Source of the DNA: Vibrio breoganii
GTDB lineage: Bacteria; Pseudomonadota; Gammaproteobacteria; Enterobacterales; Vibrionaceae
Length of the DNA stretch: 64,000 nucleotides
Assembly: GCF_001677275.1 (NCBI RefSeq)
Contig: NZ_CP016177.1
Span: 2,418,001 to 2,482,000, forward strand
Direction: 5' to 3'
Under the pieces are notes generated by a model. It searched no databases, was not told where the DNA came from, and saw only the letters and a list, made by a program, of their open reading frames with translations. The position numbers and the translations under genes are program-made. Positions 26,674-58,578 of the stretch are shown here, piece by piece. Within the stretch, counting starts at the first letter, position 1; every line of letters begins with the position of its first letter.

Positions 26674-26696
26674 ATGGTACCGGCGGGCGGAGTTGA
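26674..26696 (-). pseudogene. tRNA-Leu 3' end remnant
   Basis: The minus strand reads TCAACTCCGCCCGCCGGTACCA, differing at two positions from the T-arm/acceptor/CCA end of the intact tRNA-Leu at 26833. The rest of a tRNA is missing; three 16-bp repeats stand in its place. It may be a broken second tRNA gene or an attachment-site-like duplication. Confidence 0.6.
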
Positions 26697-26743
26697 CTGG
26701 GCTTGCATCCAACTGGGCTTGCATCCAACTGGGCTTGCATCCA
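26696..26743 (-). repeat. three perfect 16-bp tandem repeats
   Basis: The unit ACTGGGCTTGCATCCA is present three times without mismatch (26696, 26712, 26728), directly adjoining the tRNA remnant. Strand slippage or recombination at a tRNA-like hairpin could produce it. Confidence 0.95.
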
Positions 26744-26793
26744 AGCCACCACTAAAGATACAACATCACTACAATGATTACGTTCCAGACACG

Positions 26794-32072: not shown

Positions 32073-32167
32073 ACCAAACTTCATAGCTAAAGCATTTATC
32101 AACTGGCGGTTGATAAACCCTTAATTTATGCAGTTTGCCATCAACCAATTATCCATGTAAGAGCATT

Positions 32168-35029
32168 ATGGAAAAGACATATAACCCACAATCTATCGAA
32201 CAAGATCTGTATCAGACTTGGGAAGAAAAAGGCTACTTCAAGCCACACGGTGACACCTCGAAAGAATCATACTCAATCATGATCCCACCGCCGAATGTCA
32301 CAGGTAGCTTGCACATGGGTCATGCATTCCAAGACACCATCATGGATACGCTAATCCGTGCTGAGCGAATGAAGGGCAAAAACACCCTTTGGCAAGTGGG
32401 TACCGACCACGCAGGTATTGCCACTCAAATGGTTGTTGAGCGCAAGATTGCGGCAGAAGAAAACAAGACTAAACACGACTATGGTCGTGAAGCTTTCATT
32501 GACAAGATCTGGGAATGGAAAGCGGAATCTGGCGGTACCATCACCAAGCAGCTTCGTCGCCTTGGCGCTTCTGTAGACTGGGATCGTGAGCGATTCACTA
32601 TGGATGACGGCCTATCAGCGGCAACTCAAGAAGTCTTCGTTCGTCTATACGAAGACGACCTTATCTACCGTGGTAAGCGCCTAGTTAACTGGGATCCAAA
32701 ACTGCACACTGCAATTTCAGATCTTGAAGTTGAGAACAAAGACAAAAAAGGCTTCATGTGGCACTTCCGCTACCCGCTAGCAAATGGTGCTATGACGGCA
32801 GACGGTAAAGACTACATCGTTGTTGCGACCACTCGTCCAGAAACCATGCTGGGTGATACTGGTGTTGCTGTAAACCCGGAAGATCCTCGTTATAAAGATC
32901 TTATTGGTCAGCACATTGAACTGCCAATCGTAGGTCGTCTAATTCCAATCGTAGGCGATGAGCATGCGGACATGGAAAAAGGCACTGGTTGTGTGAAAAT
33001 CACTCCTGCTCACGACTTTAACGATTATGAAGTTGGCAAGCGCAACAGCCTTCCAATGATCAACATCCTAACGTTCAACGCTGATATTCGTGATGCTGCT
33101 GAAGTATTCAATACCAACGGTGAAGAAAGTGATGAATACAGCACTGACCTTCCTGCTAAATACCATGGCATGGAGCGTTTCGCTGCTCGTAAGGCTATCG
33201 TTGCTGAATTTGAAGAGCTTGGCCTTCTTGATGAGATCAAAGATCACGACCTAACCGTTCCTTACGGTGACCGTGGTGGTGTGGTTATTGAACCAATGCT
33301 AACGGACCAATGGTACGTACGCACCGCTCCTCTAGCGGAACCAGCTGTAAAAGCGGTTGAAGACGGTCAGATTCAATTTGTACCTAAGCAGTATGAAAAC
33401 ATGTACTTTGCGTGGATGCGTGATGTACAAGACTGGTGTATCTCTCGTCAACTTTGGTGGGGCCATAGAATCCCAGCATGGTACGACAATGACGGCAAAG
33501 TCTACGTAGGTCGCACTGAAGAAGAAGTTCGCGAGAAGAACAACCTAGCGCCAGTTGTAGTACTGCGCCAAGACGATGACGTTCTCGATACCTGGTTCTC
33601 TTCTGCACTTTGGACATTCGGCACGCAAGGCTGGCCTGAAGATACTGATGCACTGAAAACATTCCACCCATCTGAAGTTCTAGTATCAGGCTTTGATATT
33701 ATCTTCTTCTGGGTTGCTCGTATGATCATGATGACCATGCACTTCGTGAAAGACGAAGACGGCAAACCTCAAGTACCGTTCAAAACCGTGTACATGACGG
33801 GTCTTATCCGTGATGAAAACGGCGACAAGATGTCTAAGTCGAAGGGTAACGTACTTGACCCTATCGATATGATTGATGGTATTGGCCTTGAAGAGCTGGT
33901 TGAAAAGCGTTGTGGCAACATGATGCAGCCACAACTAGCGAAGAAGATCGAAAAGAACACTCGTAAGACCTTCGAAGACGGCATTGAACCTTACGGTACT
34001 GATGCACTGCGCTTTACTCTAGCAGCAATGGCCTCAACGGGTCGTGACATCAACTGGGACATGAAGCGCCTAGAGGGTTACCGTAACTTCTGTAACAAGC
34101 TGTGGAACGCAAGTCGCTATGTTCTCATGAACACAGAAGACCAAGATTGCGGCTTTGCACCAGATGCAGAACTAGAGTACTCAATCGCTGACAAGTGGAT
34201 TGAATCTCAGTTTGAACTTACTGCGAAAGAGTTTAACGCTCACCTAGACAACTACCGTTTAGACATGGCTGCGAACACGCTTTATGAGTTCATCTGGAAC
34301 CAATTCTGTGACTGGTACCTAGAGCTAACTAAACCTGTTCTTTGGAAGGGTACAGAAACTCAGCAGCGCGCAACACGTCGCACTCTGATCACGGTTCTTG
34401 AGAAGACTCTGCGTCTTGCTCACCCTGTTCTTCCTTACATCACAGAAACAATCTGGCAGAGCGTGAAGCCACTTGTTGACGGTGTAGAGGGCGATACCAT
34501 TATGACTCAAGCTCTGCCTCAGTATGACGCAGCTAACTTCAACCAAGAAGCGCTTGATGATATTGAATGGGTTAAAGCCTTCATTACTAGCATCCGTAAC
34601 CTGCGTGCAGAATACGACATTGCTCCAAGCAAGCCACTAGACGTAATGCTGAAAGCCTCTGATGCAAGCGACGTAACTCGCCTAGAAGCAAACAAGGCCG
34701 TACTTATGTCTCTAGCCAAGCTTGAGAACATCACGGTTCTAGAAGATGGCGCTGAGACTCCTGCATGTGCAACTTCTCTAGTTGGCAAGTCTGAGCTAAT
34801 GATCCCAATGGCAGGTTTGATTGACAAAGACGCTGAACTTAACCGTCTAGCGGGCGAAATCAAGAAGACTGAAGGCGAGATCAAGCGCATCGAAGGCAAG
34901 CTAAACAACCAAGGCTTCGTTGCGAAAGCACCTGAAGCGGTTGTTGCTAAAGAGCGAGAGAAGCTTGATGGTTACAAAGATACACTGACTAAACTCGCTG
35001 AGCAGCAAGCGACCATCGCTGCGCTGTAA
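32168..35029 (+). CDS. valS: valyl-tRNA synthetase
   Basis: A 953-aa class I synthetase. The ATG at 32168 ([15 protein letters not shown]) has AAGAG upstream. The HIGH-type motif is in [14 protein letters not shown] (about residues 42-55) and the KMSKS motif in [10 protein letters not shown] (about 555-564). Between them lies the CP1 editing domain that removes threonine. The anticodon-binding domain and a C-terminal coiled coil (about 885-953) follow, as is typical of ValRS. A terminator and then an unusual 135-bp repeat array follow it. Confidence 0.98.
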
Positions 35030-35047
35030 TAGTAAGTATTTGAATAG

Positions 35048-35077
35048 AAAGGGTTGACGAGAGTCAGCCCTTTTTTG
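35048..35077 (+). terminator. valS terminator
   Basis: AAAGGGTTGAC, a GAGA loop and GTCAGCCCTTTTTT, with one G:U pair. Confidence 0.9.
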
Positions 35078-35139
35078 TGTCTGCTGTTCCTTATTGTTGC
35101 CGGTATCGAGTGTAGAGTGAGTCATTTGTCTAAAGAAGC

Positions 35140-35725
35140 TTTCGTGCTTTCTAAGGTTCTGGATCAAGTCCAGAATGACGGGATCGCACAACTGAACTCG
35201 TACACTATTCCCAATCTCACCAGCATCGTCATTCCGGCCAACGAGCCGGAATCTTGGGTTGCACGGAGTAAGTCCTTCGTACTCACCAAGGTTCTGGATC
35301 AAGTCCAGAATGACGGGTTCACATAACTGAATTTATAAACTTTCCCCAACCTCACCAGAATCGTCATTCCGGCCAACGAGCCGGAATCTTGGGGCGCACA
35401 GAGTAAGTCTTTCGTACTCACCAAGTTTCTGGATCAAGTCCAGAATGACGGGATAACACAACTGGATTCATACCCCCCCCTCAATCTCACCAGAGTCGTC
35501 ATTCCGGCCAATGAGCCGGAATCTTGGGTCGCACAGCGTAAGTCCTTCGCACTCACCAAGGTTCTGGTTCAAGTCCAGAATGAGGGGATCGCACAACTGA
35601 ACTCATACACTATTCCCAACCTCACCAGAATCGTCATTCCGGCCAACGAGCCGGAATCTTGGGTCGGACAGAATAAGTCCTTCGTACTGACTAAGGTTCT
35701 GGATTAAGTCCAAAATGACGGGCTA
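35140..35725. repeat. 135-bp tandem array of inverted REP palindromes (REPIN-like)
   Basis: The period is exactly 135 bp. Palindrome A (TTCTGGA-TCAAG-TCCAGAA) starts at 35157, 35292, 35427, 35562 and 35697. Palindrome B (ATTCCGGC-CAACGA-GCCGGAAT) starts at 35231, 35366, 35501 and 35636. A read on the minus strand and B read on the plus strand both begin CGTCATTC, so each A-B pair is two REPs in inverted orientation, the REPIN layout. Copies differ by scattered substitutions only. No protein is supported here, although frames stay open across the repeats. Confidence 0.93.
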
Positions 35726-35781
35726 AATACCTTCATCGTTTTTCCCTATCAAACTAATCATAAAATAACCATTGAACAAAT

Positions 35782-35800
35782 GAGAATAATTATCAATACT
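35782..35800. promoter_or_regulatory. candidate Fur box upstream of DUF2061 gene
   Basis: GAGAATAATTATCAATACT matches the 19-bp Fur consensus at 13 positions by eye and lies 34 bp before the DUF2061 start. Confidence 0.55.
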
Positions 35801-35834
35801 ATTTTTAACAAGGAAAAACACTATAGGCTCAACA

Positions 35835-36218
35835 ATGAAAAAGACACTTAGCTTTGCAGTATTACACTTCTCAATTGCGTTCACCGTAGCTTACGTTCTT
35901 ACGGGTGATGTGATCCTAGGTAGTCTAATTGCAATGATTGAGCCTAGCGTTAACACTGTGGCATTTTACTTTCATGAAAAAGTTTGGAACTCAGTGCCTT
36001 ACCTAAAAGCGAAGCAGGCGTTCTCACAGATTAAAACCACCAGCTTTGCCATTGTTCATTTTAGTGTTGCGTTTACTGTGGTGTACCTAATCTCTGGAGA
36101 TGCTTTAGCGGGTGGTTTGTTGGCTTTAGTCGAACCTACTATTAATACTGGAGCTTACTACTTTCATGAACGTGTATGGCGTAAATACTTCACTCAGCCA
36201 ACACTTAGCCACGCTTAA
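35835..36218 (+). CDS. duplicated DUF2061 membrane protein
   Basis: A 127-aa protein made of two similar halves (about residues 1-50 and 68-116). Each has the DUF2061 pattern: TLSFAVLHFSIAFTVAYVLTGD then IEPSVNTVAFYFHEKVW in the first, and the matching SFAIVHFSVAFTVVYLISGD then VEPTINTGAYYFHERVW in the second. Each half has two hydrophobic segments, so a small four-helix membrane protein is likely. Most family members have one repeat. The function is unknown. The Fur-like box just upstream suggests iron control, which is an inference. It has its own terminator. Confidence 0.88.
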   Translation: MKKTLSFAVLHFSIAFTVAYVLTGDVILGSLIAMIEPSVNTVAFYFHEKVWNSVPYLKAKQAFSQIKTTSFAIVHFSVAFTVVYLISGDALAGGLLALVEPTINTGAYYFHERVWRKYFTQPTLSHA

Positions 36219-36248
36219 TAGCAACTAGAAGTACTTTCCTATAGACAC

Positions 36249-36277
36249 AAAAAAGCTCGCTAAATAGCGAGCTTTTT
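36249..36277. terminator. bidirectional terminator, DUF2061 gene / rraB
   Basis: AAAAGCTCGCT, an AAAT loop, and AGCGAGCTTTTT; A- and T-runs suit both convergent genes. Confidence 0.92.
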
Positions 36278-36299
36278 CAATTAGAAAAACAAATAACGA

Positions 36300-36716
36300 T
36301 TACTCGTCTTCATCATCTTCTTCGTCATAAACAAGTGCGTCTTCGCCCTCGTAGTATGTGCCCCAGCCGTCATAAATAATGTCGTATTTTTCAGCTAGGT
36401 TAATCAGCTTCTCAACTTGCTGATCGATCAGCTCAGGGTCTAAAGTACAAGTCATTGTAGCATCACAGCACAATAGCTTTTTGCCATCTTCGTCTTCAGT
36501 TTCTTCTGCTTCTAGAACCTCAAAACCCATCTTGAAGGCTTCAACAACCGCTTTTTCTAAAGTCTCAAAGTCTTCAGCAAAAAGATGATGTTCAATTTCA
36601 TACAAAGCATCAGGTTCACTACCGTCTTCAAGCAAAGCGGCGATAATGTCGCGCGTCTCTTCTTTCTGAAATTCGATAAGTTCTTCGACTGATAGATACT
36701 CTTCCACTTGTGACAT
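36300..36716 (-). CDS. rraB: ribonuclease E inhibitor RraB
   Basis: A 138-aa acidic protein of the RraB family. It binds RNase E and changes the set of mRNAs the degradosome cuts. The N-terminal [21 protein letters not shown], the central [15 protein letters not shown] and the very acidic end (YDEEDDEDE) all fit. Its start has GGGAGC upstream, and it is divergent from arcA. Confidence 0.93.
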
Positions 36717-57755: not shown

Positions 57756-58280
57756 ATGGCCAGAAAAAATCAGAAAGCCCCTTGGGAAGAAGAAGAGGAA
57801 ATCATTTGGGTAAGTAAAACCGAAATGAAAGAGGACATGGAAGCCTTGCAGAAACTCGGTGAAGAACTAGTAGAATTGAAACCTTCTGTACTAGAGAAGT
57901 TTCCACTACCTGATTCCCTTGCCGACGCAATTAAAGATGCTCAACGCTTCAATAAAGAAGCAAAGCGTCGCCAATTGCAGTTCATTGGTAAGCTAATGAG
58001 ACAAATTGACGTCGAGCCAATTCAAGCTGCGCTCGATAAGCACCACAACAAACACTCACAAGCATCAGCAGAGCTACACAAGCTAGAAGCGTTGCGTGAC
58101 CGCGTTGTAGAAAATGGCGACTCAGCCATTGAAGAAGTGCTGAATCAGTTCCCATCAGCAGACAGACAGCGCCTGCGCCAGTTATCACGCCAAGCGAACA
58201 AAGAGAAAAAAGCGAGCAAGCCACCTAAGGCTTATCGTGAGATCTTTCAGCTGCTGAAAGAGTTGAACGAAGAAGCTTAA
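57756..58280 (+). CDS. darP: ribosome-associated protein DarP (YjgA)
   Basis: A 174-aa charged, helical protein of the DUF615 family. Signature regions are [37 protein letters not shown] and [15 protein letters not shown]. In E. coli it assists late 50S assembly. It pairs with divergent pmbA in many gammaproteobacteria. A REP cluster follows its stop. Confidence 0.93.
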
Positions 58281-58578
58281 TACGCCAACTGGCGCCCTGA
58301 ACTTGATTCAGGATCTTCGGTATAACCTTGGGTAATGCTTATAAAGAAATGGTAAAGTTCTGCACTGCCCAAGATTCTGGATAGTCGCTAGGCGACTTCC
58401 AGAATGACGTGATTGTAGCTACAAAATGCCATTAAACGTCGTCATCCTAGAAAGTTCGGAGAACTTATCTAGGATCTTAGAGAGTGCCTAACCCAACCAT
58501 GTGCACTCTAAGGTTCTGGATGAATGCTTTGCATTCTCCAGAATGACGTAATTTGGTTTATTAAGAGTATATACAACT
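58281..58578. repeat. cluster of REP-like palindromes between darP and tldD
   Basis: Four palindromes fill this region. The first is CCTGAA-CTTGA-TTCAGG (58296-58312). The second has TTCTGGA/TCCAGAA ends with an inner AGTCGC/GCGACT stem (58374-58405). The third has ATCCTAGA/TCTAGGAT with AAGTTC/GAACTT (58444-58475). The fourth has TTCTGGA/TCCAGAA with GAATGC/GCATTC (58514-58543). Three are flanked by CGTCATYC in the same relation as the array after valS. It may also terminate the convergent darP and tldD transcripts, for which no ordinary terminator is seen. Confidence 0.85.

Follow-up and report, generated by a model that had tools for sequence, protein, structure and literature searches.

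The locus raises the question of what the phased run of palindromes between valS and a DUF2061 gene of Vibrio breoganii represents and how it was formed. The window, that is the whole stretch of 64,000 nucleotides which was analysed, was examined with Tandem Repeats Finder, a repeat search and a hairpin detector. The preliminary description had reported two palindromes, five of one and four of the other, alternating at a constant period of 135 bp, and this layout was confirmed by Tandem Repeats Finder and by the in-register repeats. Hairpins A (n=5) and B (n=4) alternate at an exact 135-bp period, the elements lying at 35151-35720. Tandem Repeats Finder gave 35153-35722 with period 135, 4.2 copies, 86% matches, 0% indels and a score of 867, the only array in the window with a period of at least 60, and the repeat search placed five copies of the A region in register at spacings of 135, 135, 135 and 135. 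From both searches the whole array extends over 35141-35722 and can be written as A(linker-B-spacer-A)x4. The word exact, used earlier for the array, holds for the period and not for the units, which are not identical: the four full 135-bp units have 113-124 of 135 positions in common in a register without indels (84-92% identity).

The A hairpins lie on the minus strand at 35151-35180, 35286-35315, 35421-35450, 35556-35585 and 35691-35720. The first has part of a spacer at its left and no preceding B, the second forms a tags-outward dimer with the first B across a spacer of 28 bp, the fourth has the tag CCTC, and the fifth adjoins a downstream flank common to V. superstes. The B hairpins lie on the plus strand at 35227-35257 (CGTCAT-hairpin-ATCTTGG), 35362-35392, 35497-35527 and 35632-35662. 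Element coordinates were taken from the hairpin detector (all four B and the second A), from the repeat register (third and fourth A) or from both (first and fifth A). The detector counts are lower bounds; for the valS array it found 8 hairpins here and 5 in V. comitans, for which reading of the sequence gives 9 and 6. The word CGTCATTC occurred 15 times in the window, whereas 100 shuffles gave 1.61 on average and never more than 4; the valS array holds 7 of the 15. The fourth A carries CCTCATTC in place of CGTCATTC and the fifth carries CGTCATTT, so both fall outside this count.

The array is preceded by an ORF at 32135-35029 (plus strand, start codon uncertain), which we take from its sequence to be valS (valyl-tRNA synthetase), and is followed by the gene of a DUF2061 membrane protein at 35835-36218 (plus strand; ORF list and family assignment). 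An apparent intrinsic terminator of valS, read by eye at 35051-35076 on the plus strand, has an 8-pair stem with one G-U, a GAGA loop and six T; a consensus terminator scan did not flag 35051-35076. A chain of hairpins in single-stranded DNA or RNA downstream of valS had been proposed; the location is right, and membership of the valS mRNA is not obvious because the array lies 3' of the apparent terminator. As a single strand, the 585-nt array folds better than 100/100 shuffles (z = -3.78 under both RNA and DNA parameters). The Rfam search of 34900-36300 gave no family above the gathering score, and its seven weak matches are all outside the array.

Three side observations were made in the window. 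The sequence AATGAGAATAATTATCAATACTATT at about 35775-35805, ahead of the DUF2061 gene, is nearly unchanged in relatives and resembles a Fur box. At 26696-26744 the 16-bp unit ACTGGGCTTGCATCCA is repeated 3.1 times with 100% identity (Tandem Repeats Finder). The window also holds a second CGTC-REP cluster at 58369-58548 with three long hairpins by the detector (58369-58409 minus, 58440-58480 plus, 58508-58548 minus); its region, 58280-58560, lies between convergent ORFs, and a degenerate short palindrome was read by eye near 58292-58320.

The genome-wide count of headed palindromes, suggested in the preliminary description, revealed a dispersed, high-copy family of REP-like hairpin dimers. The generic element CGTCAT-hairpin-ATCTTRG has 172 exact matches in the 4.49 Mb genome, and the reversed-pattern control has 0. 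A lone local satellite is ruled out by these matches and by the other tandem arrays. Elsewhere in the genome, a DNA search gave no match to A or B above 90% identity. For closer study, 36 clusters were drawn from the first 100 of the 172 matches, and the detector was run on 154,853 bp of the genome, window included. It gave 148 matches, 146 of them non-overlapping, against 3 in the reversed sequence. In the 36 clusters the spacer of tags-outward pairs is 26-29 bp in 47 of 50, whereas the spacing of the 47 tags-inward pairs varies over 30-130 bp; same-orientation neighbours numbered 13. In V. comitans a spacer of 26-29 bp was found in 21 of 23 outward pairs. The near-fixed outward and variable inward spacing indicates that the unit is an outward-tagged heterodimer, here B-spacer-A. 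The inverted, REPIN-like pairing described earlier is thus upheld, while the tags-inward pair gives way as unit to the tags-outward pair.

Each hairpin consists of a CGTC tag, a stem-loop and a CTTRG-like tail, with a short type of 29-31 nt and a long type of 41 nt, the latter having an 8-bp outer stem, a bulge and an inner stem. Across 43 different 41-nt elements, standard pairing holds almost throughout at the eight outer pairs, and column pair 7/34 is standard in 43/43 with five pair types. Against slid controls the overall pairing excess of the 41-nt elements is modest (417/602 cells, compared with 373/602 at a slide of -1). As regards genomic position, 23 of the 33 clusters for which crude ORF calls gave a neighbour on both sides (33 of 36) lie between convergent genes, an ordinary site of REPs as described in PMC3733652.

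The elements were compared with known systems, first with the CGTC-tagged REPs, families CGTC-1 to CGTC-4, of Di Nocera, De Gregorio and Rocco 2013 (PMC3733652). As in the REPs described there, an unpaired CGTC tag is followed by a stem starting with AT (172 matches against 0) and a short unpaired tail, and the outward-tag (HH) dimers have conserved spacers and lie mostly downstream of genes. The differences are that the tail is CTTRG here and mostly CCA there; that a long 41-nt partner occurs here, whereas families 1-4 have a stem of 8-9 bp and a loop of 4-5 nt, to which only the short type comes close; and that phased arrays are common here, whereas the survey describes grouped elements as rare except in Neisseria and Wolbachia. 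On these features the V. breoganii elements can be placed in the CGTC-tagged REP superfamily, outside families 1-4. The name Vibrio has 0 occurrences in the text of PMC3733652, and a literature search, judged by title or start of abstract, found no paper treating CGTC REPs in Vibrio.

The tandem arrangement of oppositely oriented REP pairs is like that of E. coli BIME-2 (PMC2817692), and most of the array clusters of this genome described below show alternating orientation, with tandem inverted REP pairs joined by linkers as in BIME-2. E. coli REPs differ in accompanying a RAYT gene which they flank, according to the same source. Among the features of BIME-2 is protein binding, by DNA gyrase (as reported in PMC2817692), by IHF or by Pol I; in the present DNA the IHF consensus has no match within 35141-35725 and 15 matches over the whole window against 6.7 expected. 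Pseudomonas fluorescens SBW25 offers a likeness in its 16 ordered REPIN clusters, in which near-identical dimers stand in tandem together with their flanks and from which the authors of that study deduce that clusters also form by a second mechanism (PMC3116915). The clusters there adjoin RAYT genes, and the largest ordered one described is four REPINs and one REP (PMC3116915); here the detector found as many as 12 hairpins in one cluster, and of the six REP-rich relatives searched five are without a Y1 transposase. The dRS3 repeats and NIME of Neisseria are likewise CGTC-class palindromes in intergenic arrays, of 200-2700 bp (PMC3898611), but there 20-bp dRS3 repeats are combined with RS elements (PMC3898611), whereas here heterodimers differ from array to array.

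The array is not the only one of its kind. Of the 36 clusters, 15 carried Tandem Repeats Finder arrays, some with as few as 1.8 copies; their basic periods were 72-366 bp, and these 15 clusters contained 94 of the 146 elements. The view that strictly phased tandem runs are unusual does not hold in the face of these clusters and of the ordered REPIN clusters known from P. fluorescens (PMC3116915). The hairpin pairs vary from array to array, and another array, on C2, was the first to be noticed, through a 29-bp match. The locus L172 (C2:259481-259887) is a 366-bp tandem duplication with one detected REP per copy; its 100% match indicates a recent event. The orthologous arrays L158 (C1:1764444-1764701) and L216 (V. 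comitans) have same-orientation long hairpins at a 72-bp period, as opposed to the usual alternating dimers.

In V. comitans, Tandem Repeats Finder gave arrays at 7 of the 10 REP loci examined. Two more relatives, G022 and G207 (L225-L229), have 29-nt CGTC hairpins with tags outward, mostly with 3-4 bp between partners, in arrays with periods of 84, 172, 244, 248 and 300-404 bp, and both genomes lack a Y1_Tnp match. The 29-nt elements of G022, G207 and G045 are near the geometry of CGTC families 1-4. Regularly spaced 29-nt CGTC hairpins were also seen at G065:C1:381978-382413 and G117:C1:176449-176699, in two genomes with an uninterrupted RAYT-like match. A DNA search with the 135-bp unit gave nothing in 24 same-genus relatives, the 41 genomes searched not including V. 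comitans and V. inusitatus. In an order-level sample of 197 genomes, none apart from this one had more than 2 pattern matches, Vibrio being the sample's only genus of the same family, with Photobacterium and Aliivibrio absent. The pattern scan of viral contigs found at least 80 loci with one match each and no array among the matches listed.

The history of the locus was followed through the relatives. The valS gap contains one A in V. superstes, a single A-B in V. inusitatus, (A-B)x3 in V. comitans and A(BA)4 in this strain; no element was found in that gap in V. ezurae, V. halioticoli and Vibrio sp. UCD-FRSSP16_30. The A of V. superstes has the same downstream junction as that of this strain. 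Nine of ten V. comitans REP loci match REP loci of this genome by their flanks, L223 on one side only, and the tenth has no match among the loci compared. The detector element counts differ at 9/9 of these orthologous loci. Shared positions with differing counts indicate that many positions are old and the copy numbers younger. The single-dimer locus L164 has no dimer in V. comitans and V. inusitatus and a different palindrome in V. superstes, which points to insertion, loss or replacement of elements as well; no insertion junction could be read there in the empty-site analysis, the flanks being too diverged.

Conservation of the hairpins was compared with that of the DNA between them. Within the array, 5 of 61 columns are variable in the hairpins against 27 of 74 in the rest (Fisher p = 1e-4). 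In the comparison of this strain with V. comitans the identity is 0.94 for A, 0.93 for B, 0.61 for the spacer and 0.53 for the linker, the last 300 bp of valS having 0.92; the linker value is not above the shuffled 95th percentile of 0.54. With V. inusitatus the values are 0.88 for A, 93% for B, 56% for the spacer and 0.60 for the linker. This linker exceeds 500/500 shuffles (maximum 0.596), so the linkers there are diverged and not unrelated, and together with the A value it makes the contrast between hairpin and linker weaker in that pair. Over nine loci, orthologous hairpins have an identity of 0.87 against 0.75 for size-matched non-orthologous ones, and linkers 0.51 against 0.48. Little hairpin excess was seen at L037 (0.73 vs 0.71), L036 (0.80 vs 0.76) and L049 (0.81 vs 0.75). 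The likeness is unlikely to stem from conversion by distant copies, since A and B have no copy above 90% elsewhere in the genome. The simplest reading would be selective constraint, and the hairpins are probably constrained. Hairpins that are kept while linkers drift suggest that the hairpins have a function for the cell at their sites.

These same data bear on the alternative that the array is a neutral tandem duplication of a dead, functionless element. Such an origin would accord with counts that differ at every orthologous locus compared, with drifting linkers and with the three loci of little hairpin excess. It is nevertheless judged unlikely, as the family is not local but counts 172 elements, and as the valS-locus hairpins are conserved about as well as the end of valS while the linkers shared with V. 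comitans are at chance.

The array is probably a tandemly amplified, BIME-like heterodimer of CGTC-tagged REPs, in which old dimers were duplicated with adjoining DNA, copy number changes by recombination and the hairpins are probably constrained. Its basic element would be two different hairpins, tail to tail, with a spacer of about 26-29 bp and the CGTC tags outward. An ancestor of this strain, V. superstes, V. comitans and V. inusitatus would have carried such a dimer in the valS-DUF2061 gap. A tandem duplication that took in the neighbouring DNA, now the linker, would have followed, probably through slippage of replication at the hairpins or through recombination of one copy with another. 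The number of units may later have been expanded or contracted separately in each lineage, and the role of the hairpins would most likely be to form secondary structure, in DNA or RNA, at the ends of genes. Later tandem amplification by recombination, as the preliminary description had it, or by slippage, is the best account of the array in view of the many arrays and of the copy numbers that differ at shared loci. The copy-number comparison is one between species only, and the step of slippage or recombination is deduced from the sequences. The flanks were also compared with the linkers. In several arrays, among them L037, L167, L171 and L035, an outer flank resembles the linker of its own array more than that of any other array, a likeness that may in some cases be inflated by missed partial elements. 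The flanks of the window array scored 10 (null maximum 9) and 8 (null 10) against its own linker, and neither is a clear copy.

A different origin had been assumed at the outset, namely that the pairs are REPINs moved by a RAYT. In its fuller form, a RAYT or another Y1 (HUH) transposase would move and array the pairs by recognising hairpins in ssDNA, with circular or rolling intermediates giving the tandem phasing. The outward-tag dimer design does resemble REPINs, and the profile search of this genome gave eight Y1_Tnp matches, which from ORF reading, and from Pfam for two proteins, are IS200/IS605-type enzymes, a fragment and one RAYT-like gene. The RAYT gene that was to be looked for is therefore present in likeness, but it is apparently split into two overlapping ORFs in different frames (L042 1345-2186, on C2), with a weak, sub-threshold HTH match in the downstream ORF, and it has no detected REPs within 1.5 kb. 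In fact the flanks of all eight Y1 matches, searched over 1.5 kb to each side, gave no CGTC REP with the detector, so that a RAYT gene flanked by the same REPs was not found in this genome, and the tag is CGTC and not the GTAG of REPINs moved by RAYT.

The Y1_Tnp search covered this genome and six REP-rich relatives with 9-110 pattern matches, a set that does not include G065 and G117. Y1_Tnp is absent from V. comitans (G071, 110 matches), V. inusitatus (G106, 37), G022 (35), V. superstes (G224, 20) and G207 (19), and the single match in G045 (9 pattern matches) contains stops. Genus-wide, a RAYT-like protein occurs in 30 of 227 genomes, 26 of which have 0-4 pattern matches. At least 5 pattern matches were found in 4/30 bearers against 5/197 others (Fisher p = 0.02, relatedness ignored), an association that is weak and would point against rejecting RAYT. 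The four bearers are this genome, G224, G065 (7 matches) and G117 (5); the RAYT-like copies are broken in the first two, that of G224 being a remnant with stops, and uninterrupted in G065 and G117. Mobilisation and arraying by a RAYT is thus not supported by the surroundings of the eight matches or by the REP-rich relatives, and is considered improbable. Present-day RAYT activity is hard to maintain for the five relatives without Y1_Tnp; a RAYT may have acted in the past and since been lost. The CGTC-REP variety seems to multiply without the transposase usually held responsible.

Both dispersal and array formation may instead have been driven by a separate enzyme that works on CGTC palindromes, for example a phage integrase or one of the DEDD/IS110-Piv type. 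The dRS3 repeat of Neisseria, a CGTC-1 repeat, is described as an integration target of a filamentous prophage (PMC3898611). In this genome an IS110-family gene (L048 350-1360, C1:858314-859321) lies between two CGTC REPs (C1:858023-859494); at E <= 1e-5 the genome has no second match of this kind. IS110, the only family compared, is not supported as driver, as the protein has no match at E <= 1e-5 in 5 of the 6 REP-rich relatives, and its matches in the sixth, G022, are of just 25% identity. An origin through such an enzyme is regarded as rather unlikely. An assembly artefact in copy number or period, conceivable as short-read assembly can miscount 135-bp repeats, is most improbable, since units differing by 8-16% are each distinguishable, since the assembly comprises three contigs, and since the valS locus of V. 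comitans, assembled independently, also shows a 135-bp array.

The tandemly amplified heterodimer of CGTC-tagged REPs is thus of a known general kind, CGTC-tagged and BIME-like, in a little-described variety. As a tentative extension, the CGTC REP dimers of Vibrio could be structures kept by the host and arrayed without a Y1 transposase, with drifting linkers, selected hairpins and copy number as a rapidly evolving trait. For CGTC REPs the 2013 survey (PMC3733652) found no dedicated transposase. The Vibrio relatives are a good test bed for the way in which these REPs spread, with many arrays and with five of the six REP-rich relatives tested lacking a Y1 transposase. The differing element counts at the nine orthologous loci compared allow tandem amplification to be studied here apart from transposition, and the constant hairpins with their drifting linkers give a handle on the usefulness of REPs to the cell.
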